Source: Scenedesmus sp. ARA3
Lineage: Eukaryota > Chlorophyta > Chlorophyceae > Sphaeropleales > Scenedesmaceae
DNA length: 64,000 bases
Direction of reading: 5' to 3'
Assembly: GCA_004335835.1 (NCBI GenBank)
Contig: RWJK01001556.1
Span: 1 to 64,000 of the forward strand
Of this stretch, positions 192 through 50,854 are shown one piece after another (within the stretch, counting starts at the first letter, position 1; the number at the start of each line of letters is the position of its first letter). Both the position numbers and the translations under genes were made by a program. The notes beneath the pieces are model-generated. The model saw nothing but the letters and a program-made list of their open reading frames with translations, did no database searches and was not told the DNA's origin.

Positions 192-3100
192 CTGGAACAG
201 CAGCGCGTTGACCATGACCAGATCCCCCACTGTGTTGGTGCCTGCAGCGATGCCCCCGCATGTCAGCGCCATGGCGGCAGCCAGGCTGCTGCTGAAAATA
301 ACACTCTGGCCAAAGTTAAGCAGCGACAGTGACTGCTGCGTCTTGATGCCAGCCTCCTGCAATGCGGCAGGTACGGCAGTTGGTGGTTGGGGTGGTTGAT
401 GAGCGCCACATGTGCACTGGTGTTGCCACATATCAGCGGTTGCGCAGTGACAGTGACTGCTGCGTCTTGATGCCAGCCTCCCGCAGGGCAGGACAGCAGG
501 CAGTGGTGAGCATCAGTGGTGAGCTGGACGCGGGGTACAAGTGGTGAGCGGCATAGCGCACTGTTGCTACTTATTTGCTTCACTTTGGAGGACATGCGCC
601 TTGTCTGATGTTGTGCAAGCAATTAAATTGAGCATCAGTGGTAAGGTGGCGAGGCATGCGCAAAGGCCAGGCTGATACACGTGCAACTGCACGCACAGAA
701 GCGCCAGTGCACTTGAACAGTAAGTCAAACATGACGCCCATCAACAGATTCACATGCAAAGAATGCACCCCGCACCTGGTACTTGGCCATGCACTGTTGT
801 TAGCGAGCAAAACAGTGCTTGCAAAAAATGGCCACCAAGCAGACGCACGTTTGGCGTCACAGGTGTAACACAACCATGCACGCCCCGCACCTGGTACTTG
901 GCCATGCACTCGTCGTAGCTCACATACGTCGTAATCACACAAAGCTGTTACAAAGCAAATGCACAACATGCGCCAGCATGCGCACCGCACCTGGTACTTG
1001 GCCATGCACTCGTCGTACCGGTCCACCTCGTGCTGCTCGTTGCCGCAGTACTTGACGGTCTCGTAATTGATCAGGCTGTCGATGGCGCGGTTGTTGGCCT
1101 GGGCCTCAGCGCGGTTCATGTCCTTGCGGAAGCCCGTGCGCCACTGCAGGCGGCGCAGAATGTAACAAAGTAACAAGAATGTAACATACATCTACGTAGT
1201 TTGACACAAAAGGCTCTGACTGAGGGCCACGCCCTTGCAGAAGCCATGACAGATGAGCATGCATGCTGAGGTGCCATGTTCATGTTCATGTTGAGCGCAT
1301 ATGCTGAACTTCAATGCGCTCAAGACACTGTGATATAACACTTTGTAACATGTCGCACCATTTCATTTAAAGGTGTGACTGAGAATGTGAAGGCCATGTA
1401 GGCCGGCCCCCACTGTGCCGCATGTCAGCGAAAGGCCACAATTGGCTGTGAAGACGGCAGACACCATGGCCACCTCAAACACAGTAAGTTTTGCATAGAG
1501 CACAACGGCTGGGTGCTGACACTACGCATAAACAACTGCTCCCACATCAGCACGACAGCAGCAACCCAACAACCCATCAACTGGTCCACGCCCCTCACCT
1601 GCGTTACTGAAAAGGTGAAGGCCATGTATGCCCCCACTGTGCCGCATGTCAGCGCAGCCAGTGACAGGCCGCACTTGGCTGTCAGGATGGCTGATACCAT
1701 GGCCACCTCAAACACAGTAGGCACCACGTTGAAGACCATGCTGCTCAACGTCCAGTTGATGCCGCGCGTGCCGCGGTCAATCACGCGGTTCAGGGCGCCT
1801 GCATTTCAATACATGTTACATGTTATCACATGTGTTACATAGCATGTGTTGAAGACAGTGGGCACCACGTTGAACACCATGCTGCTCAGCGTCCAGTTGA
1901 TGCCGCGCGTGCCGCGGTCAATCACGCGGTTCAGGGCACCTGCAAAAAACCCACCAAGTAACATGTTATGTGACAAGATGTGGCATCATCAATTGGATGC
2001 TGAAGCCACGCGTGCCGCGGTCAATCACGCGGTTCAGCGCACCTGGAATAATAACAGCATGAGACGTGTTTGTGTGACAAGTGGGGGCTGGCAGCTGCAT
2101 GTTAGCTGAGCAGGGACATGTAAGCGGCAGAGACACCATGGGGCAACTCAAAAGCAGCTGAAGTTACGTTGGTGATTGGAGCGTCCAGCCGTACACAGCT
2201 GTACTTCAGCTTCCGCACATATGCTTCAGTTCACTGCTCCTCCAACACCACGGTATGTTCAATTGCAGCCTGCAAGCCAGCATCAACGAGCTGCTGCATA
2301 GCAGCAGCAGCAGCATGCAGTGCTCACCGGTCTGCCTGCTGAGGTGGAACTGAAGGTCCAGCTCATGCAGGTGCCTGAACACCTGCAACACAGCAGCGCA
2401 GCAACAGCCAGCAGCAGCCAGCAGCAGCAAACAAATGGATCAGCATCAGGTGCACAAGTGCTGTTACAGGCACCGTATCATGCAGCAAATGCCAGCTATA
2501 TACCCCACACAGCGATACAAGCGCAGATACTGCAGCAGCCAGCCACGCTGCACCTGCTTGGCCATGCCACGGATCACGCTCTGCCAGACCATGGCAAACC
2601 GCGTTGTGCACCTTGTAACCAGAAACCCTCGATCCAACCCCAGATTCAAACCCATCCTCGCCGCACCTCCTTCGCCATGCCGCGGATCACGCTCTGCGAC
2701 ACCTTTGCAAACATCATGTTGTGCACCTTGAAACCATAAGCACAGATTCCAAACCCTTGAATCAAACCCTTCTTCGCCGCACCTCCTTGGCCATGACGCT
2801 GTGCAAGACCATCGCAAACACCACGTTGTGCACCTTGACACCATAAACCCTCAATGCACACCCTTAATAATCGAACCCATCCTTGCCGCACCTCCTTGGC
2901 CATGCCGCGCATCACGCTCTGCGACACCTTTGCAAACCCTTTAAAGCGTTACATCATCACCCCGAACCATAAAACCCTCAACACTTGAAACCCTGCATCC
3001 AGCCATGCCGCACCTCCTTGGCCATGCCGCGGATCACGCTCTGCGACACCTTGGCAAACACCACGTTGCGCATCTCCCCGCAGAAGGCAGCACCCGCCCG

Positions 3101-3338
3101 GGCAATGCCGTAGCCCAGCAGCAGCGCCACAGGCGTAAGCTGCAGCATGCCTAAGTAGTTGGCTGTTGCTGCGCCGGTGGGGTCGATGTTGAGCGCATCG
3201 ATGGCGTGCTTGAAAAAGAAGGGCACCTGCAAGCGTTATGTTAGAACAAGTGTTATGTTGTACATGGTTAGGCTGTCACACTAGTATCATGCTGCATTGT
3301 GATTGACGTCACGTTGATGCTGGAGGAGGATTGTGCAA

Positions 3339-3384
<46 letters not shown>

Positions 3385-3475
3385 GTGTGCGCCCACCTGC
3401 ACAGTCAGCAGCTTTGCTGACACCAGCAGCCCCAGCGCCAGCACGATGCGCCGCTTGAACTCGGGGTTGTCTGGT

Positions 3476-3517
<42 letters not shown>

Positions 3518-4254
3518 GCAGCGGCAGCGGCAGCGGCAGCGGCAGCAGCAGCAGCGGCAGCAGCAGCAGCAGCAGCGGCAGCAGCAGCCGCAGCAGCAGC
3601 GGACCGCGGGTAAGCAGCAGTGCGGCATGACTGCTGTAGGGTTGGTGATGTAACATCACTGATGTTCGCTACACATGCGGGATCGCAGGAGGCTGGCAGC
3701 ACAGCTATGCAGCCCCACCTTTTGGGCCACAGGTGCTGCCATTTAGTACCAACCTTCAAGCCTTTACAACTGTAAAGCCGCCTTGATGTCTGGCACAAGA
3801 CAAGCAGCTAGCTACGGCTGCATTCTGAGCTGCTCACTCCATCTTTGGGCCACAGGTGCTGTGCCAGCGTTGCCATATGTTTGGCATGCAGGCACATAAG
3901 ATGTTGCTGCAGCGCCAGAGCTGGTCAAGTATTTGAAACAGTATCCAAACCCCACCTTTTGGCCACAAGTGCTGCGCAAGTGTGGCCAGGATCTCCCTGT
4001 CACTCATCTTCTCAGCAGCCAGCTCATAGCTGCTGGGGCCATGAGCAGATGACACGCTGCCATGGCTGGGCGCGTGCCCTGCTGCTGCTGCTGCTGCCGC
4101 ATGTGTGACAGCCTTCTTACTGCTGCTGCTGCTGCTGCCGCTGCTGCTGCTGGTGTGGAGTCCACACAGCCAGCCATGGCTGCTGCTGCTGATGATGATG
4201 ATACCAGGATATCGGCTGTGACCTGGCAGCTGGAGCCAGCTGCTTAGGCCAGGT

Positions 4255-4286
<32 letters not shown>

Positions 4287-4463
4287 TGGATGCAAATGCA
4301 GCTGCTGCCGCTGCTGGCCCCACAGCTGATGTTGCTGCTGCAAGGCGTGACTGCTCAACGACCTGCTGCTGTTGCGGCTGCAACCGCTGGCTGCGATGCC
4401 TGCTGCTAACCTGCCTGCTGACTGTTGCCGGAGGGCTGCGACTGCACTGCTGGTGGCGTGCAT
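192..4463 (-). CDS. ATM3: Mitochondrial half-type ABC transporter, ATM3/ABCB7 family (3' part off window)
   Basis: Inner-membrane mitochondrial exporter of a sulfur/glutathione compound needed for cytosolic Fe-S assembly (family knowledge). Seven exons fit in phase: 4463-3956, 3470-3397, 3226-3014, 2382-2328, 1798-1599, 1143-991, 356-192, together 456 codons. The start [14 protein letters not shown] opens an Arg/Ser/Ala-rich, acid-poor leader typical of mitochondrial presequences, followed by poly-A, S and H tracts. The transmembrane domain then matches ATM family signatures: [79 protein letters not shown] and [13 protein letters not shown]. The Walker A/B nucleotide-binding domain should follow the [13 protein letters not shown] exon but is off the left edge. 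Almost every exon edge is copied into the neighbouring intron (see the repeat entries). The family is certain; the N-terminal start is inferred. Confidence 0.93.
320..490 (-). repeat. ATM3 exon-7 acceptor edge, two copies
   Basis: The segment coding the start of exon 7 (around KTQQSL and its acceptor, 320-370) recurs upstream in the intron at about 435-490 with few changes. Only the copy at 356 continues into the rest of the exon. Confidence 0.8.
770..1022 (-). repeat. ATM3 exon-6 donor edge, three copies
   Basis: The end of exon 6 (ECMAKYQ followed by the GTGCGG donor) is present at donor positions 990, 890 and 775. The copy at 990 carries the full 51-codon exon. The other two keep the last 8-13 codons and the donor but have lost the remainder. 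Spacing is about 100 and 115 bp. Confidence 0.85.
1373..1725 (-). repeat. ATM3 exon-5 3' part, two copies
   Basis: The second half of exon 5 (1606-1725) is repeated at 1373-1497 inside the following intron. The intronic copy is diverged and frameshifted, so it looks dead. Confidence 0.75.
1725..2044 (-). repeat. ATM3 exon-5 acceptor edge, three copies
   Basis: The start of exon 5 ([13 protein letters not shown]) with its acceptor occurs three times, with acceptor AG at 1800-1799, 1941-1940 and 2044-2043. The first is functional. The second matches for about 30 codons with six synonymous and no non-synonymous differences before diverging. The third diverges after GTRG. Confidence 0.88.
2548..3075 (-). 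repeat. ATM3 exon-3 donor edge, five-copy tandem array
   Basis: The 3' end of exon 3 ([15 protein letters not shown] plus GTGCGG donor) recurs with donors near 3013, 2891, 2782, 2665 and 2553, a spacing of about 110-122 bp. The exon-proximal copy is functional. Copies 2-4 keep an open frame with a few substitutions or a 9-base deletion. The most distal copy is frameshifted. Each unit is roughly half exon and half intron sequence. Confidence 0.92.
3341..3382 (+). repeat. CAG/CTG triplet tract in ATM3 intron 2
   Basis: Uninterrupted CAG units on the plus strand, read as CTG in the transcript, begin 15 bases downstream of the exon-2 donor. Length instability would be expected. Confidence 0.9.
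3474..3600 (+). repeat. Imperfect CAG/CGG tract ending at the ATM3 exon-2 acceptor
   Basis: About 125 bases of GCA/CAG units with interspersed CGG lie directly before the exon-2 acceptor. In the transcript they read as CTG/CCG units and occupy the place of the polypyrimidine tract. Confidence 0.85.
3712..3990 (-). repeat. ATM3 exon-1 donor edge, three copies
   Basis: The end of exon 1 (LAQHLWPK and donor) occurs near 3955, 3840 and 3717. Only the copy at 3956 has both the donor and the phase needed to join exon 2 (AAA G|AC gives Lys-Asp). The middle copy has lost its GT. The distal copy has one base more, so its donor is out of phase. Confidence 0.85.
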
Positions 4464-4633
4464 TGCTGCCGCTGGCAGCAAGCTGTTGCATCTGCTGATG
4501 TCGGCAGGCATGCTGATGCCAGCTCTTGTGCTCTGCCTGCTGCTGCTGCTGATGTGCCTGCAAGCGTTGGCATCAACACGCGTGCTCCACCAACTGTGTA
4601 TCCAGCCAGTCAGAGGTCGTCTGCTGTTGTGGC

Positions 4634-4664
<31 letters not shown>

Positions 4665-5545
4665 CTGCTTCTTCCATGGCACCGCTACCTCCTGTCGTCC
4701 GAATCCGATGTAGTTGCAAACCTTGTTTGATAACAACTTCGTGAACGTGGGATTACGTGCTGCTTGCTGCCGTGGAAGCCTGCAGAGCCACCCTGCTGAC
4801 CTCATCTGCTGCTATGGCCTGTGCCAGTCCTAGTCGTTTTGATGCATATGTATGATCAATAACAGTCCTGATTAGGCTTGCCGAGCTGAAGAGGCACAGC
4901 CACGTGGTGCAGGAGCGACAGAAGGGCTTTTGGGGCTTGTGCGGGAGTGTGCAACGCTGGCGCCACGAGCGTGAACGCACAAGCATTTTCTGTTATGCCA
5001 ACTAACCCTTGGTTATAGAGAACCAGACACAGCACCATCCAACGCGTGTTTACTAACGGTGGACTTCACAGTGAAGTCATCCTGACCACGAAGATTTGGT
5101 CAGTAAGAAGCTTGCATAGGCATGTAAACACAGTTGGTCAGCTGGAGTTTCCCGTAATAAGAAGCTTCGGCGCAACAGTGGTGCTGTTTGACGCCCCATC
5201 AAAGTGCATGCAACCACTGAGGAGCCTTTGGACTGCTGAACGATTTCGTAGCAGACAACTCAAGCACTGTTACCCACATCTCTGTGCACAATGCACGACG
5301 ATGGTAGCAGCTTCCCCAGTTGCAGCAACCACGATCCGCATCACTTCAATTGCATCCGCACCGCTGCACTGTGCAGCTGCACCACACCACCAGCCATCTG
5401 CTAGTCAGTAGTACACAGGCTGTGCAAGCAGGCAGCTGCACCGCATGCCCATCACAACCTGCAGCATCATCTGCTGCTCATCTCGCCAGCGATCCCTCTA
5501 CACCTATCTTCCTACAATCCAATACGCTGCTGCAACAACTAGCAC
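4464..5545. other. Intergenic: ATM3 upstream region and exonuclease 3' flank
   Basis: Both neighbours are on the minus strand, so this 1.1 kb should hold the ATM3 promoter and 5' UTR and the exonuclease 3' UTR. I see no conserved coding sequence and no clear TATA box. Short open frames here are Ser/His/Ala-rich and unrecognised. Confidence 0.5.
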
Positions 5546-5907
5546 TCACTCAGCCCCCTCCTCGCTGCTGCTCCTGCTGCTGCCGCCGCCGCCAGCCTGC
5601 CCCTTGGCCATACCCGAAGGCCACGGCAGCCGCCGCGCACACCCACAGCCGCCGCACTCTGCCCATTTCGGCTTGTGATCTGCCCTCTCGCAGTGCTGCA
5701 GGTACCCCCGGATATCCCGGAAGCCCTTGCCGCAGCTGCACATGTATCCGCTGGCGCTGCTGCCGCCGCCCGCGCTGCAGCTGCTGCTGCTGACGCGTGC
5801 CAGGTCATAGTGACACACCTCACACAGTGAGGGCGAGGAGTGCCACAGCCGCAGCGCCCGGAAGACCTGCCCTGCCACCAGCACATCCAGCGCCGCATAC
5901 TTGACCT

Positions 5908-6000
<93 letters not shown>

Positions 6001-8849
6001 GGAGCATGGGCCTGTCAGTGAACAAGCAAGGCCATGCTGCTGCTCACATGCAGCCAACCAGCTGCCCGCAGCACACAGGGAGCAAGACAACCATGCACTG
6101 CTATCAGTCTTTCCCATTTCTGAACACCATAATTTTAGCTGGAACAGTCCATGTTGCAACACCAGCACACCCCCAAAACCCACATTGATCTACCGTATTC
6201 ACATTTTAGTTCACACAGTGGAAAAGCATCAAATCATACAGAAAACTGCCGCACCTGCGCCCGTGAGAGCTGCGCCAGCTCCCAGTTGCTCATGCTGACC
6301 TTCTTGCTCTTCGGCAGCGCCAGCCCCAGCACAGCCCGCGTCAGCCGCGCCAGCCCAAACCCGCAATACCCTAAGCCCTGCGCCACTGCCTGCAGTGCAA
6401 AAGAAATGCATGAAAACAACACTTGGCAAAGCACGATGCAACTTAGCACTCACTCACACATCTAAAATGGCCCCCCGCCACCACGGCTACTTCAAGCTCA
6501 GCTGTCCAGATGCGCTTCTCGTGCTGTATGCTTGCTCTAGTCTTACCTGCAGGTCCAAAAACCGCCCAAAGTCCTTACAGCCGACGCCAAATGTGCTTTG
6601 CATCTTGCCTTCGTCACTGGCTGCCCATCCAAAGCCTAAAAGTGAGATGCTTGGATCTTTCAAAAAGTCCTTGAGCACTGCCGGCAGCTTGTAGCTCATG
6701 CGGCAGGTGCGGATGAGCACTGCGACGCGGCTGCTGGCCAGCTGCACCATCGCAACAGGTGTGAAGCGGCGCCCAAATTCGGGCCGCCACTCGAGGTCTA
6801 TTGCCACGACAGGGTCCTGCATGCTGGCGCGAAGGGCGCCCAGCGCGTTGCCAATGTAGGCGGCATTCTCCACCACCAGCACCTGAGGCGGCAAAACAAC
6901 AAACCAAAGCAAAACAAGAGGCAGCCGGTGAGTTACAGCGTGTTGATGATACCGCAGATGGTTGGCGTGGCGAGTGCGTTGCCAATGTAGGCGGCGTTCT
7001 CCACCACCAGCACCTGAGGCGACAATGACAGAACAAGCGGCAGCCGGTGAGTTACAGCGTGTTGATGGCAACTGCAGAGATGCTTGGAGCGGCGAGTGCA
7101 TTGCAGATGTAGGCGGCGTTCTCCACCACCAGCACCTGAAGCGAGGTGAAGCAGAAGTGAAGCAGACATGACACGGTAGGCAGCTGTTCAGATACAGGCG
7201 TGTTGCCGGCACAGCAGAAAATTGGCTCATCAATGTCATTTGGCTTTGGCACCCAGGGGAGTAGTAGGGGCAGCTTGCAAAACATGACAGCTGCAGACTG
7301 AATAACACAACATTGGACGCGTGTATTGTGCTTCGACGCAAGCATTGTGTACGATGACAGCCGCACCTGCAGCCCGCCCAACAACTCGATGCGCTCGTAG
7401 CAAAACAACGCTGCACAACAGCTGCAGAATCGGGCAAACATAGGCAACACATGCTCCAAGGACTACGCGCCGCACCTGCAGCCCTCCCGGCAGCTCGATG
7501 CGCTCGTAGCAGCCATTGCCACAACGACAGCTGCAGAGTGAATGCAGCAGAAGGCATATCCATGGCATGCAAACACAATTAGTGCCGCACCTGCAGCCCT
7601 CCCGGCAGCTCGATGCGCTCGTTGCAGAAAAGTACAGCACAGCAGCTGCAAAAGCAATCATAAGAGAAACATGCTTGGTGTATGCCGCGCCGCACCTGCA
7701 GCCCTCCCGGCAGCTCGATGCGCTCGTATCCGGGGGCCAGCTTGAAGCTGGGCACCCCACCCAGCTCAGCCTCCAGCACATGACCCCAGTCCACATGCGG
7801 CAGCCGCACCTGCAGGCATCAGGCACATCAGCGCAACACACAATGTCAGTGTTGTGTGCATTGTTGTTTGTGTCGGCTGCTGTGCAGCTGCCCAGCTCAG
7901 CCTCCAGCATCTGACCCCAGTCCACATGCGGCAACCGCACCTGCAAGCACAAGCCACATCAGCACGTCATACACTGTTATTGCTGTGCTCATTGTTGTTT
8001 GTGTCAGTTACTGTGCTCCTGCCCAGCTCAGCCTCCAGCACGTGACCCCAGTCCACATGCGGCAGCCGCACCTGCATGCACCAGGCACATCAGCACATCA
8101 TACACTGTTATTATTATTGTTATTGTTGTGTTCATGGTTGTTTGTGTCAGCTACTGTGCAGCTGCCCAGCTCAGCCTCCTGCACGTGACCCCAATACACG
8201 TTGGCTTTCACCGCACCTGCGTATGGCACCAGCCGTTTGCAAGGCTGTGGCTGCAATCCGCTGCACATGCTGCAACCTGCACGTGCGGCTGCTGCGCCTG
8301 CTCAACTGCTGTCGGCGAGCTTGCGACGCCGGCAGCAGCAGCAACAACAGCGGCACCGAGCTCCTGCTCCTGGTCTTGCTGCTGCTGCTGCTGACGTGCC
8401 TGCTGCTGCTGTGTGTGCTGCAGCTGCAGGTGCAGCTGCAGCGGTTGTTGCTGCTGCTGCTGCTGCTGCTGCCGCATCGTATGGTGCCGTCCTTGCAATT
8501 GCTGCAGCACCTGCTGAAGCTTGGCCAGCTGCGGATTCTGCTGCACAGTAGAAGCAGCGGCAGCTGATGCTGCAGCTGCAGCATCCCAGGAGTGACTAGA
8601 CACAGCAGCCGCCTGCACACCTGCAGCAGCACCCGCTGCAGCAGCAGCAGCTGGCGCGCTGCTGTTGCCCTCAAACTTATTGATCACAGAGTCAAGGCTG
8701 CTTCTGTGGCGCTTGTGTTGCAGCTGCGCGGCTGCTGCTGCAGGCAGCGCTGGCGCAGCTGCAGCTGCGATGCTGCCCGAGCCAAACCTTGCTGCTAGCA
8801 GCGCCTCTGCTGCTTTGCGCTTGGCACTCTTGGTGCTTGCGGGAGCCAT
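5546..8849 (-). CDS. DEDDy 3'-5' exonuclease domain protein with C-terminal zinc fingers
   Basis: Nucleic-acid 3'-5' exonuclease of the RNase D/Werner-exonuclease fold. Five in-phase exons: 8849-8217, 7809-7696, 6882-6547, 6389-6255 and 5905-5546, giving 525 residues. The first exon is a Q/A-rich leader with a basic KSAKRK nuclear-type signal and no known domain. The catalytic domain shows motif I (VVAIDLEWRP, Asp and Glu), motif II (LLGFGWAASDEGKMQ, Asp) and motif III (YAALD, the DEDDy Tyr and Asp). The C-terminus has a CEVC pair and a C2H2-like CSCGKGFRD...HCERADH finger. The exon-1 donor is uncertain: 8217 or the in-frame CAG|GTTGCAG near 8275. A phase-compatible exon upstream (9049-9485) may extend the N-terminus. 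Substrate (DNA or RNA) cannot be told. Confidence 0.88.
5908..5995 (+). repeat. (CAG)29 tract abutting the last acceptor of the exonuclease gene
   Basis: About 29 pure CAG units on the plus strand read as CTG repeats in the transcript and end exactly in the CAG of the exon-5 acceptor. The repeat therefore supplies the acceptor and the sequence where a polypyrimidine tract would lie. Confidence 0.95.
6838..7142 (-). repeat. Exonuclease exon-3 acceptor edge, three copies
   Basis: The start of exon 3 (VLVVENAAYIGNAL with acceptor) is present with acceptor AG near 6884, 7015 and 7137, spacing 131 and 122 bp. The first is functional. The second differs synonymously until it diverges after the Leu codon. 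The third has one Gly-to-Cys change. Confidence 0.9.
7363..7735 (-). repeat. Exonuclease exon-2 donor edge, four copies
   Basis: The end of exon 2 (YERIELPGGLQ plus GTGCGG donor) occurs with donors near 7695, 7590, 7475 and 7366, spacing about 105-115 bp. Copies are nearly identical over 30 bases. Only the copy at 7696 is attached to the rest of exon 2. Confidence 0.92.
7755..8217 (-). repeat. Exonuclease exon-2 acceptor edge, four copies
   Basis: The start of exon 2 (VRLPHVDWGHVLEAEL with acceptor) is repeated with acceptors at 7811, 7942, 8073 and, degenerate, 8218, spacing 131, 131 and 145 bp. The outermost copy overlaps the proposed end of exon 1, which makes that exon's donor less certain. 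The unit is about 50 bp of exon plus 80 bp of intron. Confidence 0.9.
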
Positions 8850-9048
8850 GTGCGCCCTGCAACGACAGTGACAACAGTAACGGCATAGTTACACAGACGC
8901 CACCAACACTTAAAGGCCCAAGGTCACCAAACGTGTCACAAACAGCACTGCACAGGCTCCCAAGCCGGTGCCAAAATCAACTGGTTTTCCTTGTAGACAT
9001 GTTCTGCAGTGCATGGTGACACAGTGGTACCTGCATGGCATGTGTCAC

Positions 9049-12630: not shown

Positions 12631-12635
12631 TGTAA
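12631..12635 (+). terminator. TGTAA polyadenylation word, CBSX
   Basis: TGTAA, the usual green-algal polyadenylation signal, lies about 540 bases after the CBSX stop codon. Function is inferred from the motif and position only. Confidence 0.4.
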
Positions 12636-12952: not shown

Positions 12953-12959
12953 TATAAAA
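12953..12959 (+). promoter_or_regulatory. TATA-box-like element
   Basis: TATAAAA followed by AGGCTC sits in otherwise mixed sequence. No supported coding sequence follows within 1.5 kb, so its target is unknown. Confidence 0.3.
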
Positions 12960-22283: not shown

Positions 22284-22324
<41 letters not shown>

Positions 22325-22706: not shown

Positions 22707-22739
<33 letters not shown>

Positions 22740-23920: not shown

Positions 23921-23965
<45 letters not shown>

Positions 23966-24329
23966 TGACACACCCACCGGCACAGCAAGCTCAGGCAGCA
24001 CAACACCCACTCCCGCCACCAGCACCACCACCAGCAGCAGCAGCAGCGACTACAGCGCTGTCTTCACTGCTGCTGACCTGGCTCACTGGGAGGCCGTTCT
24101 CAACTATCAGCTGAGCCAGCACAGCAAGGTGTATGCCTCCCTGCTGGCGGCTGGCCAGGTCAGCCCTGCAGAGATAACGCTAGTAGCGCCAGGTGCCTTT
24201 GCTGCACTAAAGGAGGCTGCTGTCGCTGCCAAGGGCATCAGCCCTTCTCAGTTCAAGATGCCTACTGTGGTGGCGAGCGGTAGCTCGCAAGTGCGGCACC
24301 TGGAAGCGAGGAGGGTGGCGCTGGTGTAG
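20197..24329 (+). CDS. GH3: GH3-family acyl-acid amido synthetase, frame broken three times as given
   Basis: GH3 enzymes adenylate a carboxylic acid (auxin, jasmonate or other) and conjugate it to an amino acid. Exons fit as 20197-20454, 20787-21054, 21253-21555, 22157-23007, 23383-23518 and 23856-24329. Motifs: ATP-binding TSGTTGDSK, then FYGATEG and LVRYRIGDVV, with a C-terminus GISPSQFKMP like the family's NQYKTPR region. Poly-Q runs interrupt the protein. Lesions: TAA at 20838 where SKY(Leu)PIT is expected; TGA at 22351 between SSDQ and NGGSSS; and a T7 run at 22627-22633 that shifts frame between GTCFF and EFIQT (T6 expected). The gene may be decaying, or the sequence may contain errors. 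The N-terminal exon start is uncertain. Substrate cannot be predicted. Confidence 0.82.
21520..22025 (+). repeat. Duplicated block around the GH3 exon-4 donor
   Basis: The exon-4 end (VLQQRW...EDLEAG plus GTGAGG donor, to 21556) recurs at 21830-21880. In addition, 21570-21612 repeats at 21630-21668, and a GGTTGGCTGGTT-rich segment at 21685-21835 repeats at 21915-22020. These are nested partial duplications of one intron. Confidence 0.75.
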
Positions 24330-24379: not shown

Positions 24380-24830
24380 CTTCAGGCAGTTGTGTGAGCA
24401 GCGGCCAGCAGTGCGGCTGGCTCCCTGCCGCTGAAGTAACAAGACTCAAAAAAAGCTGCAGGAGGGCCAGGGGCTTGTGGCTATGTGTGTTGCAGCTAGG
24501 GGCATCAGTCCTTCTCAGTTCAAGATGCCTACTGTGGTGGCGAGCGGCAGCTCACAGGTGCGGCACCTGGAAGCGAGGAGGGTGGCGCTGGTGTGAGGCA
24601 TCTGCGTCCACATACAAGGCAGCGCCACTAGTTCTGAGATTACTACCCGTAGTCACCACAGGCTGTGGTGGCGGGCGGCAGCCTGCAAGTGCGGCAGTTG
24701 GAAGCGAGGAGGGTGGCGTGAGGGGCTGCCATTGCGGCTGTGGTGCTGGCAGCAGCAGCAGCAGCAACGCCAGTGCGACACCTGAAGGCAGGCGGGTGGC
24801 AGTTTTTTTGGCGGGTGGCAGTGCAGTGAG
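24225..24830 (+). repeat. GH3 last-exon 3' end, three to four tandem copies
   Basis: The end of the last exon (GISPSQFKMPTVVASG...RRVALV and stop) recurs at about 24497-24597, with four synonymous differences over 31 codons and its own stop TGA instead of TAG. It recurs diverged at 24662-24721 and as a fragment near 24767-24800. The first extra copy could serve as an alternative terminal exon. Confidence 0.85.
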
Positions 24831-26962: not shown

Positions 26963-29900
26963 CCTGCTTCAACAACGGCGACAGCTGCTGCTGCTGCTGC
27001 TGCTTCAGCTGCTGCTGCAGGAAGTGCTGCTGCACTGCGGCAGGCAGTGCCAGCGCAGCAGCTGCTGCACTGTCATGCTCCAACCCCAGCTGCTGCTGCT
27101 GCTCCTGCTCTGCTAGCAGCTTTATGTTGCCGCTGCTTGATGACCCCCTGCCCCTCCTAGGTGATGGTGCTGCAGCAGCAGCCTCTGCTTCCGCTGCTTC
27201 AGCAGCTGCCTGCTGGGCTTGCGCCTTGCGGCGCGCTGCCGCTGCTGCTGCTGCCGCCTCTGCTGCTGCCTTTGAGTATGTGGGGTCTGGGCTGGTGCCG
27301 CTGGCTGCATGCAGAGCTGACACCATTGCTGGCAGCACATCATCGCTGGTGCCGCGCACATCCAGCAGCTGCAGCGCATTCACAGAATAATGCAGTGTAT
27401 GCGGTGGTGAAGCAGCATTGTCAGCCCTTGCAACAGCAGAACAAGCACAACACTCTACGTGCCACAGCAGGTCAGGCATAAGAACAAGGTAGCAGCTAGA
27501 CGCCGCTGTCAAAGCTCAAGCTTCTGACCAGGTTGTCAGGTGAGCACCGTACTATCGGTCATGTCTGTTTGATGCAAGTATAGCCTACTGTGCTGTGCCT
27601 GTGCCCTCCATCTCCCTGACCAAAACCTAAGGCTCCCTCTCGCCTTGACGTCCTCGTGCTTGACAACATTGGACAGCACATTGAATACGGCTCTATCGCT
27701 GGGGTCATTCACCACCTGCCCTGCCTCCCATGACACTATTCATATAGCCTAAGGCTTCCTCTCACCTTGACGTCTTCGCGCTTAGAAACGGTTGATAGCA
27801 CATTGAACGCGGCTTCATCGCTGGGGTTGATCACCACCTGCACCACACTGCCCAGGCGCCCCGCAGCAGCCAGCATGTGGCGCACCTGAGCGGCAACAGC
27901 GGCAACAGCGTGGCAGGAAACACAGAGGCAGAAGCATGAGAGTAAGCAAGCAAGCAGGCACGCCGCAGCAGCCAGCATGTGGCGCACCTGGAGGGAGGGA
28001 CAGCAGATGCAGCAGCGGCAGACGCATGCAAGTAGGCGGGCCAGGTGGGCAGCGGAGAATGTAGCATGCAGCGTCGCATATGAGGGGAGGCAGCAGAAAC
28101 GAGCCCAGGTACCCCGCACACGCGCAGCGGGTGGGGTGACTCAGAGGTAGAGCAGATCCCAGCTGCGCGCGGCTGCTTGTATGCAGAGGTGAAGGCACAT
28201 GGTCTAACAGCCTATGGACAAGTCGAGCACTAATCCCCACATACCACTGCAAGCTGTGGTGCCGCACGCCACGTCGTCAGATCGCAGCATCACGCCCCAC
28301 CACGCACCTTCCTAAAGTACTCGGTGCTCGCGCTCTGCTCGAAGCTGATGCCCGCCCACAGCACGTCGTCAGCAACAAACCAAGCCCCACCATCTCAACA
28401 ATACATAATAATGAAATAGCATATAACATCTGCGCACCTTTCTGAAGTACTCTGTGCTCGCGCTCTGCTCGAAGCTGATGCCCACCCACAGCACGCCGTC
28501 AGCCACAGCCAGGTCGTCCTCCAGGCGCTCAAACACGTCCTCAGGGGTGATGCAATCACCCTCCTCATCGTCGTACAGCATCACCTGCACGCACAGCCAG
28601 TTGGATGCAATCCATGAGCAAGTGCTGAGCGATGATGCTCAAAACATGTCCTCAGGCGTGATGCAATCACCCTCCTCGTCGTTGTACAGCATCACCTGCG
28701 GGAGGGCAATGAGATAACAGTGTGACAGTGGGATTGTAGGTTGAGGCTGTATGACATGTAATGTGACATGTCATGTGACAACTGCGTAACCTTGAAGCAC
28801 ATCGCGTCCACATGGCAGGAGCCGCAGGCCACCGGCTGTGCCACCTTCAAGGTGGCCACGACGAGGCCGTTCATCTGATAAGACATGGTGTGTAACATGT
28901 TATATAACGACTACGTACCTTGAAGCGCATCTCGTCTTCCCCACAAGCGGTACATGCCAGGGGCTGTGCCGCCTTCATAGTGGCCATGACAGGCCCTTCA
29001 TGTTATGTGGCATGTTATGTGGTGTGTATTATGACAACTTATGTGACACAACGCACCTTGAAGCGCATTTCATCCTCTCCGCAAGCAGTACAGGCCAGAG
29101 GCTGTGCCGCCTTCATGGTGGCCATGACTGGCCCACTCAGCCGCTCAGTGGCATGGCAGCTGGGGCACACCACGTAGCTGCAGCAGCAGCAGCGAAAGGG
29201 TTGGCACAGGTGTCAGCGCAGCAAGCTAATGACAACAGCCGCATCAGTGGCACACCACGTAGCTGCAGCAGACAGGCAGATAGAATGAAATTCTGCTTTC
29301 AGCATGGCGGTGGCAGCGGTGGCATACACAGGTGTACCATTACCAGGACATGCCTGAGGATACCATGTTCTATGCACAGCTGCTGCTGTAGTTTCGCGTG
29401 CTGCTGCCTTACACACTAACAACAATGCCTATCGATAGCTCCTCTTCCTGCCGTTGCTGATGCTGCTGCTGTGCGCACCTGCTGCTGCTGTTGCCACCTG
29501 CTGTTGCCTGCTGCCACTGCTGCTGCTGAAGCTGCTGCCCCCCCGCACCTGATGTTGCCGTGCATCTCCACTGTAATGCCTTCAGGGTTCTTCTCGTGGT
29601 GCCACGTGTCCATGCCCACCACCTGCAGCAGCACAGCAGGAGAAATATGAACTCAAGCAACGACCCTCATAATTGCGTCCCTGATGCATGCATTATCATG
29701 CTGCCGTGTTGAGATGTTCGCCAGACGCTCTGCAGGCAAGTCAAGCTGCTGCTATTCTACACACTTGCACAGCATCGCATCTGCAACTGCCGATGCAAAT
29801 CAAAAACACTGCACCAGCATCAGCGGCAGAGCAGGCACCTGCGTGCATGCTGGCTACGCCGACAAATGCCATGCCGGTGTGCCCTCCCACCCCAGGCACA

Positions 29901-42151: not shown

Positions 42152-42182
<31 letters not shown>

Positions 42183-44000
42183 GTTCACTGCGACGCCTGG
42201 AGCAGCTGTTGCAGCACGTGCACCTGAATGCGCGGATGCTCTCGGGGGATAGATGCTTCAGCGCACATGCGCTGTGTTCAGCACACTGCCTAGACTAGCA
42301 GCAGCAGGCGGAGCAGCAGCATGTTCAGCAGGCGTTGTGCCAGTTCCAAATCCTTGAATCTGCTTGCGTCGATTGCTGCTGCGCCAGGTTTGTGGAGGAC
42401 AACTGGGAGTCTCCCGTGCTGGGCGCGTGGGGCCTGGGCTGGGAGGTGTGGCTGGACGGCATGGAGGTCACGCAGTTCACATACTTCCAGCAGGTGCGGC
42501 GCGGCGGCAGGTTGGCGCAGTGATGTGCATGGCTGGCAGGGTGTAGCAGTGGTGAGGCTGGACGGCATGGAGGCCGCGCAGTTCACATACTTCCAGCAGG
42601 TGCGGCACGGCGGCAGTTGTAGGCAGTTTTTTTTGTGGATCTAATTGCTTGGCGCAAACGGTCCTAGCCGACTGCAGCCTGCAGTTGTGGTTGTTCAAGG
42701 CGTTAGGAGTTTCAACGCGCGCTGTAACGTCCGCAGGGTCTGAGCCTGCAGCAAAAATGTTTACATCATTGTACCCCAAACTAGAGGCAGGCAAGTTGAG
42801 TTAAGTCGTGCTGTGTTGTTATGTGTGGCGTGGTGCAGGTGTGCAGCAGGAGCAGCCTCTGCTGCACATGTGGGCTGTGTTTCTCGCTAGCTATCGTAAA
42901 GGAAATGGGCGACTGCATCACTGACATCAAGTCATGTTGTGCAGGTTGTGCTGGCTGCTGCTGCGCAGCCAGTTGTACAGCACATAGTACGTGCTGCTGT
43001 GCTGTTGCTGCTGCTACTGCCTTCGCGCCGCAGGCAGGCAGCAGTGCTGCGTTGTACATCACGCTGTATGCAGCCTGACAACAAATGCACATGCAAACTC
43101 CGCGATGGACAAAGTGCAGGCATACCCATGCTGTACCTACTGCTGCTGCTGGTGGTGCTGCTACTGCTTCCACGCCTGCTGCTGAGGTCGTCGCCAATTC
43201 GAAGCAAGATATTATTGATTAATTATTACTCAACATTATACAGCCCTCGTACTGAACAATCGCAGCTGTGCATGCAGTACAAGATTGTGACAGCCACTGC
43301 CTGTCTGGACATCGCCCTGCCGGCGTGGAAAGACTGAAGATTAATCGAGTAGTGCGTGTGGTAAATTTAATCGAGTAGTGCGTGTGGTAAAATTCCAGAC
43401 AACCTGTAGCAACCACAAGGCACTCAACAGCAGGCCGCCTTCAGCATGACGGTTTTACATTGGACTCGGAGCCTGAGGGCGTGCATGCATGCACGCCCCG
43501 ATGCACAATCGTAGGTGCCTAATGCATGCTGTATGTATTGAAATTGATATTGCATGCTCTCGATTGCCGTGCATGGGTCGAGATTCACCGGACAGGGATG
43601 CCGGCCCGTGTGGGCGTGCATGCCTGCACGCCCTGCTGCAAGATCCGACAAGTGCTATGGCTTCATGCTGTTTTACAACCTGTGCTGCTACTGCTCCAAG
43701 GTTGCTGCAGTGCCCCGATTGATAGCGCATTTCTACCGGCCCGGGGCTATGTACATTGCACCAAAGTCTCAACTTGCAACCACTTGCTTTGCCCTTATTT
43801 CCCCCGTTCCATCTTGACCCCCTTCAGAATTGCGTGTGATGGGAGAGACGGTTATGCTTGCATGACCAAAGTTGATCTCACACACAGAGGTTTTCATGGG
43901 GTTGAACCTCATTTGAGTGACAGCCCGAGCTGAGCTGTTTGCAGCTTCAAATCCTTTCAGGTGTTAGTGGTGGCGTATGCCGCGTGAGTACACCAGTGTA

Positions 44001-44045
<45 letters not shown>

Positions 44046-46512
44046 GTTCCATCTTGTCCTTGCTTGTGCATGTCCCGCTTTACATTGCTGCCGCCAGGCT
44101 GGCGGCAAGGTGCTGGACGCGCCTGCTGTTGAGATCACGTACGGCCTGGAGCGCATCCTGATGAGCCTGCAGGGCGTGAAGCACTTCAAGGACATCCGGT
44201 GAGACCACGCACGCCTGGGTGTGAACTTCACAGCATAGAGGCTCTGAAGTTTCAGCGTGCACTGTGGCAGCAGTGGTGCAGCGCAGCGCGCTTGAGGATA
44301 GTCTACCTGAATGCATGCTCTGCCCTTCTGTTGCCATGGCTGCTCTTGGTCAATTCAATGCATCTGCTTGCTGGGAAGATGCTGATTCACTGTTACCATC
44401 TGGTGCTGCTCCCTATGCTGCTGTAGCTCAGTTTTGTCCGCCGCTCTGCTTGTGTTACGGCCGCCAGGTACTGCGAGGGCGTCACGTACGGCGAGCTGTT
44501 CCTGCAGAACGAGTACGAGATGAGCTGCTACAACCTGGACGAGGCCGACGTGGCTGACCAGCGCCAGCGCTTCGCGCTCTGCGAGGCAGAGGTGCGCTGA
44601 CCAGCAATGTGTTATGGTGTGGTGGTGGCAGCAGCGGCAGCGGCAGAGGCACAGCTTGTACTCACAGCAATAGCAATGCGGGATGCTTTAGCGTGATGTG
44701 TCCATTGGCACCTTGTGTCCAAGGCTGTTTGCCAGCAGAGAGCAGGTCAGCTGTCAGCTGTCTATGCTGAGATCCATATGTCTCGGTAATGGATGAGGCT
44801 GACGTGGCAGACCAGCGCCAGCGATTCGCGCTTTGCGAGGCAGAGGTGCGTGCCCGAAAGCAGCACTGCAGCGCATATGTGTTGCAAACGAGTGTTGCAG
44901 CAGCAGCTGCAACACTTGCGCTCGCCACAGCATCATCAACAGCAACGTTGTGTGTGCAGCGGCCGCCAGTGTGTGCGCACATCTGTTCATGGTGGCTACC
45001 TACACAACTGCCGGCCCTGTCCAACTACAGAGGCTGTTGTCTGAGGCTTTCATCATGCTGCTGCGTGAACCCTGCCGCTATTCTTGGATTCTGCAGGCTC
45101 GCCGCATGCTAGAGAAGCGGCTGCCAGTTCCTGCATATGACATCATGCTGCGGCTTGACCCCTGCTGCTGTTGCTGCTGCCTCCGCCGCCGCCGCCGCCA
45201 CCACTGCTAACTCTGCTGCTGCCGCTGCTGCCATGTACCTTGCAGGCTCGCCGCATGCTTGAGAAGCGGCTGCCGGTGCCTGCATACGACATGCTGCTCA
45301 AGTGCAGCCACGCCTTCAACGTGCTGGATGCGCGTGGTGCCGTGGGCGTCACGGAGCGCGCAGACTGCTTCGCCAGGATGCGCGCGCTGGCGCGCGAGGT
45401 GACAGGTGTGTGGGGTGTCATTATTGCATGTGAAGCAGGAGATTATGCCCTGCCCATCTTTTGCTGCACGGCAGTGTATGCTGTGCTGGTTGCTTTGCCG
45501 TGAATGGTTACGACATATTGCTGGTGGCCTTGGTTTCATTGCAATAGCATCATTCTCAGCTGGGGCTGAAGTGATTGTGTACGCGTTGTTGCATTAGCCT
45601 GTAAGGGCTGATCTGGCGTTTACACTTCTGCTGCTGCTCCTGCTTGTCGCGTTCAGGCCTGTGGATGGCTCGGCGGGAGGAGCTGGGCCACCCCCTGGGC
45701 ACTGTCAGCTCCTCAACAGACGAGGACGCAGCGCCAGCAGCAGCAGCAGCAGGCAAGGCAGCAGCAGCAGCAGCAGCAGGCCCCAGCAGCCCCGAGCTGT
45801 TTGTGCTGGAGGTGGGCAGTGAGGAGCTGCCCCCTGATGATGTGCTGGCAGGCATGGCGCAGCTCAGGTGCGTAATAAAACATGTCCAGAGATTACAAAG
45901 ATGTTTTATCAGAGACTAGATAGGTATGTGTTGGATAGCTGTATAATTTCAATGGTCGTGGGCGACTCCTGCTGTGTGTGGACAGATGTGTGCACAGCTA
46001 CATCATTAAGTTGCACAAGACGTCAGGTTAGCTCTCCAAAAAGCAACACAGCATTGCCGCGTCAGTGAGCAGCCTCAATGCACGCCTTTTCAAATGCCAC
46101 CACTGTCTAATTGAAGCGTCATCGCTGCCGCAGGGAGCGCCTACCTGCCCTGCTGGCCAAGCTGCGCCTGAGCCACGCAGGCGTGGAGGTGCACGGCACG
46201 CCGCGCCGCCTGACGGCGCTGGTGCGTGACCTGGCGCCCGCGCAGACGGCGCAGGAGTCCAAGGTGAGCACAACGTAGTGCACTTGCTGTTTGTGTGCCT
46301 ATTTAGCCATGTTGCATCAATGGCTTTTGTTTTGGGGGGTGGATAGAGCGTCCTGCAGGACCGGAGTTTAAACCAGAGGCAGCGCGAGTGTGCTATCAGC
46401 CCTGCATACCCGTATGTTGTTCACACATGTTCAAGTCTGTAGTTGCCTTCAGCGCGTGGCGTTGCTGCTGTTTCGGGTATACATCTGGGTCTGAGCATCA
46501 TCCCAAGACGCT

Positions 46513-46558
<46 letters not shown>

Positions 46559-48795
46559 GCCGCCAGGTGCGTGGCCCGCCCGCCAAGGCCGCTTTTGATG
46601 CCTCAGGGGCGCCCACCAAGGCGCTGCAGGGCTTCTGCAAGAAGGCCGGCGCAGACATTGGCTCAGTTACAGTGGAGGCTGATGCCAAGGGCGTGGAGTA
46701 CTGCTTCGTGGTGGTGAAGGACGCGGGCAGGAGCGCAGTGGAGGTGAGGCTGTTTTAGCTGTTTTGATATGGATTTTCTAGGCAAAGCAGAGAAGTGAGG
46801 TGAGGCTGTTGCTGTGTTGGTGCTTTGGAACTCGCTTACAAAGCTACGCGGGACAAGAACGCTGTCATGAGCAGCTGGTGTGGGTAGTGTGGGGCAGTGT
46901 TTGGTGATGGTATGATCGTGTGGTTGGTGACAGTGGTGCTGCTCCTGCGCTGCCGACGCTTGTAGGCTAGCTGCCTGTTCTCAAGTGCATGCAAGGCCTC
47001 CTGGCCTGTGTGCTGAACGCCGCCTGTGCGCCCGCATTTGCTGTCTGTCATTTGCTTGTCGTTTACATTTCAAACAGGTGCTGCCTGTCTGCTTAGCTGC
47101 CGGCGCTTGTGGGCAGCCTGTCCTTGTAGAAGAGCCTGCGCTGACACTTGGTTCCCCACTTTGTTACTTTGTCACCTGTCACTTTTTGAACAGGTGCTGT
47201 CAGCTGAGCTGCCGGCGCTGGTTGGCAGCCTGTCGTTCAAGAAGAGCATGCACTGGCCTCCTTACTCACCACTCTGTTACTTTGTCACTTGTCACTTTTC
47301 GAACAGGTGCTGTCAGCTGAGCTGCCAGCGCTGGTGGGCAGCCTGTCCTTCAAGAAGAGCATGCGCTGGAACGCCTTTGGCGCAGCATACAGCCGGCCGC
47401 TGCGCTGGCTGCTGGCGCTGCATGGCGACACTCCACTGGCCTTCACCTATGGTGGGCTGTGTGCTGGTGACGCAACGCGCGTGCTGCGCAATGCGGCACA
47501 GCCGGAGCTGCAGGTGCGCTGGTGGCGTGGGGTGTTTGGGCTGCACCCCTGCTCAGCAGCAGCTGCTGCTGAGAATATGTGCAGGCAGGGCGGTGGCAGC
47601 ATCAATGCCACGCAAGAACCTGGGATCATTGCGTGTTCATATCTTTGGGCGTACGGATGCTGTTCAGAACTGCTGATGATATGCATGGCTGCAGCAGGTT
47701 GTGCACTGTGGTTTCCTGGGCATGCAGCACCACGGTATTGCCCGCAGGCGCTTGCCTCACTGCAGTCTGGCCCTGTGTGTCTGTCTTGCAGGTGCCGTCC
47801 GCGTCTGCCTACCTGTCGCTGCTGCAGCAGCAGGGCATCCAGCTAGACTTTGAGGCGCGCAAGGCAGCCATCTGGCAGGGAGCAGCAGCAGCAGCAGCTG
47901 AGGTGCGGCGGCCCAGCGTTGTTACGCCTGCATGCTGGCAGTCTGATGCTGCTGTGTTGGGCTTTGTGTCCCGAATTGAAACTTTTACAGCTGTCCTGCT
48001 GATGCTATGACAATGAACCATAGGCTGAGCCGTGGAATGTGGTCCCACAAATAATACTGGTGCAACACTCTATAACGTTTGTAATGTATGCTATGTGTGC
48101 CGAATGCTGCAGGTTGGTGGCATCATCCCTGCGTCTGCGTCTGGCGACCTGCTTGACGAGGTGGCAAACCTGGTGGAGAGCCCCACAGTGATCAGGGGCG
48201 GCTTCGACCCCGCCTTCCTGGAGCTGCCAGAGTGAGTGTTGCTTGCGGTTTAAACCAGGGTTTGATCAGCTTCAACACATTTGAGCCCCACAGTGATCAG
48301 GGGCGGCTTCGACCCGGCCTTCCTGTGGCTGCCAGAGGGAGTGCTGCCCGCAGCTTACAGGGCTTCAAAGATAATCACATTATGACGGGTTTTTCGTTCA
48401 GAAGCGCGTTCACTTGTGGCCAACAACAGGGCTGCTTGTCCTGACATCAATGCAGCAGGCATGCTGTCCGTATATCCATGTGTATGGTGTGTCATCAGCA
48501 TGTCACCAGTCACGCTCTACCAATGACACACTAACACCAGGCTCTCATGTTGTGTGTGCCGCTACTGTCGCTGCGCAGGGACGTGCTGGTGATGGTCATG
48601 CGCAAGCACCAGCGCTACTTCCCGGTCTTCTCAGCGGACGGCAAGCTGCTGCCAGCATTCATCACAGTGGCCAATGGGCCAGTCGACCCCACAGCAGTAG
48701 CAGCAGGCAATGAGGCGGTGCTGCGCGCCCGCTTTGAGGACGCGGCCTTCTTCTACAGGGAGGACCTGAAGCAGCAGCTGGCAGACTTCAGGTGC

Positions 48796-48852
<57 letters not shown>

Positions 48853-50854
48853 AGTGTGCAGGCTAGCAGGGCGTAAATTTGTGATGAGGCTTGTGCAGCG
48901 GCGTATTCTGTTAGCATTATCGTCCCTGGCGTCTTGCTGACCTGCACACTTGTACTTTTCAGCCACTTTCAACCGCAATCTGTTCTGCGGCTGTTCATGG
49001 GAATCTCTGGCTGCTGATGCTGCCGCTGTGTTTGACTGCTGTGTCGTGGCCGCTGCCCTGCAGGCCCAAGCTGAAGGGCACGCTCTTCCAGAAAGACCTT
49101 GGCACCATCTTCGACAAGTCGGTGCGCGTTGAAGCCCTGTGCCCCGCCCTGGCAGCCACCATGGGCTTCGCCGCAGCCGCCGACACCGCAGTGGCAGCAG
49201 CAGCGCTGTGCAAGGCTGACCTGGCCACGTACACCGTCACAGAGATGACCGCACTTGCAGGAACAATGGGCCGGCATTACGCGCAGGTTCAGGGGCTGCC
49301 AGAGGATGTTTCAACCGCCATTTTTGAGGCTGTGTTGCCTCGCCAGGCCGGGGATATTCTTCCTGCAAGCCCTGCAGGAATTGTGGTGGCAGTTGCGGAT
49401 CGGCTGGACAGTTTGGTGGGGCTGGTGGCGGCGGTTGGGGCGCCCAGTGCGACTGCAGACCCCTACGGGCTGCGTAGGGCTGCGTACGGCATGCTGCAGG
49501 TGCGGGGCTGAGGGGCGTGTGTTGATGCTCGCATGCATGCATGTGTTTGTATGCGGCGTTGCATGGGGCAGCATTGCTTGTCTGTTGGACTTGTGTGATG
49601 TGTCTGGCTGCACGGATGCACATTGTCCATGAGTTCGTCCTTTTATTGTTGTGTTCCTGCATGGATGCCTGTACATGCTTGCTCTTTGCAGGGGCCATTT
49701 GCAGCATTGCTTACTTCGTACTGTGTTGCCAGCATCATGCTTTAGCTGACTGTTGCGCTGCTGCTCTGGCCTTGCTGTTGTCCTGCAGGCGCTGGTGTCC
49801 AACAATGTCTCCCTCAGCCTGCAAGCACTTGCATGGCCACACTCCTTGGGGTGCTGACTGCTGCGCTGCATGCTCCTGCTGCTATCGTCTTGCAGGCGCT
49901 GGTGTCCAACAACGTCTCCCTCAGCCTGCAAGCACTTGCATGGCCACAGGCTGTGCAGTGTTGACTGATTCGCTGCATGTCCCTGCGGCTGTCTCCTGCA
50001 GGCGCTGGTGTCCAACAATGTGTCCCTCAGCCTGCGCAGCGCAGTGGCGCTGGCAGCAGCGCAGCAGCCGCTGCCTGTGCGCGGCCAGCAGCAGGAGGCC
50101 GTTGTGGACTTTGTGAGCAGGAGGCTGGAGCAGCTGCTGGTGGACTCTGGCGTGTCTGCAGAAGCAGGTGCGCTGAAGCTGCGGCGTTTTGCAAGTCTGC
50201 TTGCCAGGGAGATGGTGTGGCTGTAGCAGTGGACAGTAGTGCCGGTGTTGTGTTGGGCCCTCATAGCTCATAGCATGTGTTGCAGTGGCTTGCTGCCTAC
50301 AGGTCTTGTGTGGGCTGGGTGCGGACTTCTCGCGACAGCCCCTGGCATCAGCTGCCTCGTGCGGCTGCTGTGTGCTGTGTGCTTAATAATGCAGCTGCTC
50401 TGCTGCACAAACTGCCTGACCAGCTGCTCCTGGAAGAAGCGCTGTGTTGTTGTTTGCTCGTGCCTGCTGCTGATCCTGGCTGCATTTACTGCTACGCAAC
50501 TCTGTGTGAGCGGTGCGGCAAGTCCTGCCTCCACGCCTTCAGCTTGCTGCCCTGTAACACACTTGCCTCGTCAATCATGCTGCATGTTTGTTTGCCCTTG
50601 CAGTGCGTGCCGTACTCGCGGAGCGCGGGGACAACCCTGCGCTGGCTGCATCCACAGCATCGCAGCTGCAGGCAGCACTGGATGCAGGCGACAGCGGCCC
50701 TCTCGGAGCCATCATGACGGCGCTGTCCCGCCCAACACGCATCGTGCGCGGCAAGACTGTCGACGTGTCTGTCTCAGTGAATCCGGCGCTGTTTGAAAAC
50801 GCAGAGGAGAAGCAGCTGCATGCAGCATACCAGGCAGTGGCGCAGCAGCTGCAA

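Follow-up and report, generated by a model that had tools for sequence, protein, structure and literature searches.

Among the recognised ways in which introns are gained is tandem duplication (PMC3443670); the model of Rogers (1989), together with Hellsten (2011) and Gao and Lynch (2009), is cited for it in PMC3443670 and PMC4974935. In the potato RdRp gene, for instance, a tandem genomic duplication across an intron-exon boundary has been described (Ma, Lan and Niu, 2016; PMC4974935). Here, duplicated exon edges were analysed in a 64 kb window (the whole stretch of DNA under study, contig RWJK01001556.1, positions 1 to 64,000) of the green alga Scenedesmus sp. ARA3, which is part of an 87 Mb assembly of 1,567 contigs. 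By inspection of the DNA, each tandem unit at these exon edges was found to combine the edge itself with its splice site and some intron sequence, often about 100–140 bp in all. These direct tandem copies hold both exon-edge and intron sequence and are thus duplications across exon-intron boundaries. The intronic copies differ from the functional exons with a marked surplus of synonymous changes. Our tentative explanation, given a probability of about 0.42, is that much of this divergence dates from a time when the two sequences each served as an exon edge, on separate, long-diverged haplotypes, and that unequal exchange then joined them.

Two genes of the window place it close to Tetradesmus obliquus. 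Its glycyl-tRNA synthetase (GlyRS) shares 99% identity with T. obliquus protein P0001 (OEZ85_007280), with six differences in 950 aligned residues, and its sirtuin shares 99% identity with P0121 (OEZ86_006973), with, by eye, one difference in the 237 residues used; judged by these two proteins, the alga belongs to T. obliquus or to a strain very near it. The GH3, ATM3, WRN-type exonuclease and glycosyltransferase genes were named from their translations, while ATM3, GlyRS and the sirtuin were also named from search matches. For GlyRS and the sirtuin, the edge contiguous with the exon is the one used in the T. obliquus protein.

The initial annotation had compared six intronic copies with their functional exons and reported 32 synonymous and no non-synonymous differences over 139 codons. 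All six comparisons proved to be real and free of amino-acid changes, but a codon-by-codon recount reduced the total to 31/0 (synonymous/non-synonymous) over 131 codons. Five of the counts were reproduced exactly. In the sirtuin gene (minus strand), the middle copy of the exon 6 donor edge (28919..28996, followed by GTACGT) differs by 10/0 over 26 codons from the functional exon (29057..29177, donor edge at 29057), whose gene model matches P0121. The second copy of the ATM3 exon 5 acceptor edge (1851..1939, minus strand) retains an intact TTGCAG acceptor and differs by 6/0 over 30 codons, the first of them split by the intron, from the functional exon at 1599..1798. In GlyRS (plus strand), the exon 6 donor edge copy (44792..44845) gave 5/0 over 18 codons against the functional exon at 44468..44591, with which P0001 agrees, and the exon 7 acceptor edge copy (45097..45141; functional exon from 45246) gave 4/0 over 15 codons, to which a BLAST match two codons longer adds two non-synonymous changes. 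The copy of the GH3 last-exon end (24501..24596, plus strand; functional end at 24234..24329) gave 4/0 over 31 codons; its BLAST match begins farther upstream, adding three synonymous changes and one non-synonymous change (Lys/Arg). The functional stop TAG (24327–24329) faces TGA in the copy (24594–24596), two changes that leave a stop in place. The sixth count, 3/0 over 19 codons for the middle copy of GlyRS exon 11, had to be corrected, as it does not compare the copy with the functional exon. In this array of three acceptor edge units (49789..50034, plus strand; functional exon start at 50002), only 11 codons of each copy are homologous to the functional exon, giving 1/0 for the copy starting at 49789 and 2/0 for the middle copy starting at 49896; compared with each other, the two intronic copies differ by 1/3 over 19 codons. 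The six comparisons are a selection, the clean end of a spread. When all counted copies of the homology-supported exons in the window were included, 33 pairs covering 554 codons gave 90 synonymous and 68 non-synonymous differences, and across 95 pairs of a wider sample the scatter of the ratio did not exceed that expected under a single proportion (p = 0.31).

This wider sample was obtained with a gene finder based on the codon usage of the window, its training set being 1,745 codons from seed peptides read in the window translations; it recovers the exons of the homology-supported genes of the window, with a few ends shifted. It was run on 264 kb, and later on 284 kb, of the same genome, the latter being stretches of seven contigs picked for convenience and not at random. 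Filters on the scores of exon and copy, on the junction and on the gap reduced the 194 pair rows found in 264 kb at all exon scores to the 95 pairs, and the later counts (exon score 10, offset below 700, one-sided junctions) comprise 92 pairs from 51 exons in 284 kb. Sirtuin exon 6, the best case of the initial annotation, falls below the score filter and is therefore outside these wider counts and inside the window tally only. The 92 pairs showed 255 synonymous and 154 non-synonymous differences, or 62.3% synonymous, with a 95% range of 57.3–67.6% on bootstrapping by exon, which is safer than p-values from pair counts, since copies within one array share a history and such p-values are too small. 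The share was 60.7% with one pair per edge, 59% in donor-type pairs and 64% in acceptor-type pairs. Noncoding tandem pairs read as codons gave 447 synonymous and 1326 non-synonymous changes (25.2%; 447/1,773), and random changes in the codons studied are expected to be 26–27% synonymous. The earlier expectation that dead copies should show mostly amino-acid changes needs adjustment: by our own calculation from the 26% figure (0.52/1.26), a free copy beside an exon limited to synonymous change should show a synonymous share of about 41%, and the observed 62% still lies well above it.

A clock was taken from the aligned columns outside the functional exon in each BLAST match, with at least 30 such bases present in 49 of the 92 pairs; in arrays of at least three units these columns include exon parts of other copies, so that the clock is, if anything, too slow. 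Over the 49 clocked pairs, 126 synonymous differences were observed against 129.8 expected, and 66 non-synonymous differences against 190.9 expected for a free copy. Synonymous sites thus keep pace with the clock, while amino-acid sites lag to about one third; the non-synonymous counts are over-dispersed among these pairs (p = 0.004). The pairwise ratio of non-synonymous to synonymous divergence (dN/dS) was about 0.22, and not near 1 across all copies, the outcome that had been named as contradicting the pattern; it is also well below 0.5, the value predicted when a free copy is paired with an exon under full constraint. Among the models fitted to the 49 pairs, a constant amino-acid rate in the copy of 0.36 of neutral was the best tried (log-likelihood −77.9), followed by a broad, uniform-like spread of offsets (−79.7), a mixture of live and dead copies (−83.1), a fixed offset of 15% (−84.7), exponentially distributed allelic offsets with means of 10% (−89.1) and 4% (−104.4), and neutral copies (−126.3). 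Simple neutral decay at one clock is rejected by the synonymous shares, by the deficit of non-synonymous changes and by this last fit.

A copy poor in amino-acid changes and an exon fast at synonymous sites are told apart here only through the clock. It is conceivable, though we consider it doubtful, that the copies were always free of selection and that the exon changed rapidly at synonymous sites through codon-usage turnover and CpG decay, thereby inflating the synonymous share. Several observations fit such a history. In kind, the non-synonymous changes are close to neutral. Differences affect 36.6% of CpG third positions, compared with 29.6% of CpG sites outside the exon and 11.1% of those at positions 1 and 2; where the functional exon has A or T as the third base of a codon, mismatches amount to 42% and 32%, respectively. 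In addition, the changes specific to the functional exon number 20 synonymous to five non-synonymous; those specific to the copy number 76 to 73 under stricter filters and 103 to 134 under looser ones, where one of the exons is itself a copy. At non-CpG sites, divergence is 5.1% at position 1, 3.1% at position 2 and 9.5% at position 3, and 15.6% outside the exon. The lag is weaker there, but the ratio of third to first and second positions is still 2.3 against a calculated value of about 1.7, so that CpG decay is rejected as the whole cause. Furthermore, by our reckoning a fast exon would need a synonymous rate 3–4 times that implied by the non-synonymous changes of the copies, yet the synonymous total equals the clock, and the model with neutral copies fits far worse than the best one. 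The suggestion in the initial annotation that the functional copy changed recently accounts for at least part of the pattern, as the exon-specific changes indicate, but as the sole cause it would require an exon synonymous rate several times neutral.

Present translation of the copies, another explanation offered at first, is unlikely. An in-frame stop, in the frame of the exon, lies within the unit in 82 of 92 pairs, so the units cannot generally be read in frame as functional alternative exons would be, and the synonymous share is unaffected by the offset modulo three (0.64, 0.57 and 0.66 for remainders 0, 1 and 2). Read-through translation of the unit is rejected on these two grounds. Among the indels in exon parts, 17 of 20 are not multiples of three, and stops make up 4 of 106 single-base amino-acid changes compared with 3.4 expected. 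The severity of the amino-acid changes (mean BLOSUM62 score −0.36 versus −0.60 expected, p = 0.067) completes a picture of changes that are fewer than expected, yet little filtered in kind. The copies were absent from the two T. obliquus proteins fetched (GlyRS and sirtuin) and from the transcript-derived open reading frames fetched. Donor-type copies sit beyond the used donor and are normally not read in frame, yet they show the same pattern as acceptor-type copies. By eye, the GlyRS copies alter residues kept in the three GlyRS proteins compared (Trp to Arg, Thr to Ala), and no seamless splice from exon to copy through an internal AG|GT was found by eye in a few arrays. In GlyRS, P0001 keeps the exon-contiguous edge without an extra segment and so, at the protein level, gives no sign of a new intron spliced between duplicated AGGT sites.

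A further explanation is direct selection on the copies, at present or intermittently: they may be used in some transcripts, or be held in reserve as edges to be brought back into use by recombination, with damaged ones purged. This appears unlikely to us, even though the constant reduced rate is the best-fitting model and the over-dispersion of non-synonymous changes looks as if some copies were kept and others dead. Pairs of copies compared with each other are likewise 53.5% synonymous, the amino-acid changes are slightly milder than neutral, and the GH3 copy has kept a stop codon. The stop-closed units, the irrelevance of the reading-frame offset and the tolerance of frameshifting indels and stops point the other way, as do the shared ratio in donor-type copies past the used donor and the absence of the copies from the fetched T. 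obliquus proteins and transcript-derived open reading frames. A related and rather improbable scheme is that introns archive working exon edges: recombination would shuttle edges between array and functional position, copies would thus have been in service for much of their history and be rid of damage at each return, and ordinary housekeeping genes would hold a reservoir of pre-tested edges and splice sites.

We therefore return to exchange between old haplotypes. In this scheme, two edges would diverge in service on separate haplotypes, which could be alleles in an old, heterozygous diploid or stem from the two parents of a hybrid. The edge of one haplotype would then come to lie beside that of the other, inside an intron, through unequal exchange or template switching, and there the copy would decay freely. 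Synonymous and intronic differences would come first, and amino-acid changes, stops and loss of splice sites later. Duplications that cross an exon edge or lie within an intron would survive because splicing can skip the extra unit, whereas those falling inside an exon are usually fatal to the gene. This explanation fits best in kind, since it accounts for the synonymous surplus, for intron and synonymous clocks running in step and for later changes that are little filtered. The synonymous share falls over tertiles of intron divergence (0.71, 0.67 and 0.62), as expected if amino-acid changes come later, and young tandem pairs are few (2 of 103 below 4% divergence, most at 8–20%), as if the copies already differed when joined. 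The broad spread of offsets also comes close to the best model in fit. Haplotype exchange is possible in this group: the T. obliquus DOE0152z assembly measures 208 Mb compared with 109 Mb for UTEX 393 (PMC5552973, PMC5255914), which fits a diploid with separable haplotypes, a point that PMC5552973 itself does not make; a published Scenedesmus sp. fits such a diploid as well.

Several results weigh against this explanation. No second haplotype was seen in the 87 Mb assembly for five regions, namely GlyRS 46,900–50,120, sirtuin 27,500–29,250, window 1–8,900 and two stretches of contig C1428, the last three searched among the best 40 of 567, 419 and 78 candidates, respectively. Among the matches listed, window 1–8,900 gave CAG/CTG stretches and diverged matches to WRN-type exons, and the C1428 stretches gave mainly short repeated stretches. 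Exponential allelic offsets fit poorly at both means, and in the NREL paper haplotypes were paired at identities above 95%; ordinary allelic diversity is therefore too small, and the data would call for old haplotypes, hybrid ancestry or copies that repeatedly went back into service. The fixed offset of 0.15 is worse than the broad spread, and some pairs are younger than that; first- and second-position divergence (0.033, 0.029 and 0.059 at clock values of 0.126, 0.189 and 0.239) shows no steady rise. The non-synonymous differences of the GlyRS copies match, by eye, no residue of P0001, P0002 or P0012, and the sirtuin middle copy, with its 10 synonymous differences in 26 codons, is beyond the synonymous divergence expected of alleles. 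The scarcity of young pairs could also reflect an old burst of duplication or assembly collapse of near-identical units. Of the original proposal that the copies came from another functional allele by unequal exchange, the mode of origin thus stands as the best fit, while a realistic allelic diversity falls short and the alternate haplotype was not seen. If the proposal is true, the arrays record old haplotypes or hybridisation within a single-haplotype assembly.

Two further explanations concern how the sequences came to be alike or doubled. One is ordinary slippage duplication with later gene conversion that keeps exon and copy similar, which would explain why the exon parts differ less (8.7%) than the remainder of the same matches (17.8%). 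It would also explain the WRN-type donor edge (7367..7728, minus strand; functional edge 7696–7728, copies at 7591–7623, 7476–7508 and 7367–7399), where the two nearest copies are identical over 10 and 11 codons beside aligned columns outside the exon that differ by 25% and 23%. We give this explanation little credence. Conversion predicts a dN/dS of roughly 0.8–1 by our own calculation, which was not simulated, because it resets synonymous and non-synonymous differences alike and because amino-acid-changing conversion from copy to exon is rejected; the observed value is about 0.22, and the synonymous total equals the intron clock. As a cause of the synonymous surplus, gene conversion is thus rejected by calculation only. 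That the arrays are an assembly artefact, in which the two haplotypes of a heterozygous genome were joined one after the other, is hardly credible. The spacings of 100–140 bp are near short-read lengths and young pairs are scarce, but arrays reach seven mutually different units, as at C1428:58089 with its functional edge and six copies. Moreover, 0 of 55 pairs lie inside an exon, where artefacts would also fall, and the GlyRS exons are intact, giving 950 residues without a stop and the six differences from P0001 already mentioned. Assembly doubling is rejected on these three results.

The arrays are frequent and share a common anatomy. Copies were detected at 58 of 420 exon edges tested (coding score at least 10), and adjacent tandem pairs number 55, of which 36 reach an exon edge, 19 have no contact with a predicted exon and none lies inside one. 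Self-comparison of the window yielded about 28 short-range repeat groups, with a spacing of 100–149 bp in 19 or 20 of them. Donor-type units often end in sites like CAG|GTGCG, acceptor-type units start after CAG, and many junctions read CAG|GTG or similar. Of the 92 pairs, 38 match over at least 60 bases outside the exon and 26 over fewer than 10. Splice signals travel with the unit, GT being intact in 44 of 47 copies and AG in 43 of 47, figures that are partly ascertained because junction-crossing matches were required. No edge copy was found at the thresholds of the 420-edge survey in C300 and C700 (10 kb each). No dispersed relative of the GlyRS and sirtuin regions was seen in the assembly, where extra short GlyRS matches sit at CAG/CTG-rich stretches; a dispersed element as the source of the copies was accordingly not seen for these regions. 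The codon-based gene finder took the copy for an exon in 45 of 95 pairs, which makes the arrays an annotation trap. At the same time, they offer many natural tests of spliceosome choice among near-identical splice sites that differ mainly in position.

The remaining arrays of the window show a wider range of counts. In the sirtuin gene, the distal copy of the exon 6 donor edge (28791..28868, minus strand) carries 4 synonymous and 18 non-synonymous base changes over 26 codons (4/9 over 22 codons in a shorter BLAST match). It reads V, S and H, as does P0122 from a related alga, where the functional exon reads L, A and G. This copy is possibly a fossil of an earlier exon state, and copies of different ages therefore seem, from these residues, to coexist in the sirtuin array; arrays may in this way preserve earlier exon states. 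Exon 7 of the same gene (28438..28584) has a donor edge copy within 28303–28377 (4/2) and an acceptor edge copy within 28637–28699 (2/2), all on the minus strand. In P0122, P0126 and P0128 (EukProt, related algae), transcript-derived sirtuin open reading frames terminate past the exon end in an apparently unspliced intron, which hints that these algae may commonly retain introns.

On the minus strand of ATM3, a third, shorter copy of the exon 5 acceptor edge (2003..2042) gave 2/1 over 13 codons, and an array at 2535..3075 holds four copies of the donor edge ending at 3014, each with 1–2 synonymous and 1–6 non-synonymous changes. The acceptor edge of the WRN-type exon 7696–7809 is repeated in an array of 131-bp units (7760..8232, minus strand). 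Partial, diverged matches (66–73% identity) to window 1–8900, WRN-type exonuclease exons included, occur in G000:C924 and G000:C796 and are probable paralogues. On the plus strand, GlyRS exon 4 (42388..42493) has a donor edge copy in 42551–42616 (0/3 over 16 codons). A GlyRS acceptor edge with three units (47065..47370; functional exon 47307–47513) has a nearest copy with 3/1 and a far copy with 3/4 and two stops. Elsewhere in the window, five tandem units of about 111 bp at 54982–55725 have a spacing within the range of the exon-edge arrays, and tandem arrays at 53976–54170 (units of 22–44 bp) and 62394–62631 (40/79 bp) have periods unlike it. No Rfam match at gathering thresholds was found within the window.

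Compared with known systems, these arrays combine familiar and distinct features. The potato RdRp case is alike in that the 3′ end of an intron and the 5′ edge of an exon were tandemly duplicated, splice signals included (PMC4974935). It differs in that a single event there gave a new, used intron with RNA-seq support, whereas here 58 of 420 edges carry copies, up to seven units occur, and the message is unchanged in two T. obliquus proteins. As in intron gain by tandem duplication, where AG|GT stands at both unit ends, junctions like CAG|GTG are found here. In the Rogers-type model, the intron arises from a segment of exon that carries AGGT; the units studied here already hold a splice junction, and the copy lies within an existing intron. 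Introners resemble the arrays in being repeated genome-wide and tied to introns, but they are described as dispersed, with sequence common to different genes (PMC9860276), and the GlyRS and sirtuin regions have no such dispersed relative. No description of widespread exon-edge arrays in Scenedesmaceae was found in the literature searched, a negative limited to those searches, and the word "intron" is absent from the main texts of PMC12571836 and PMC7590803.

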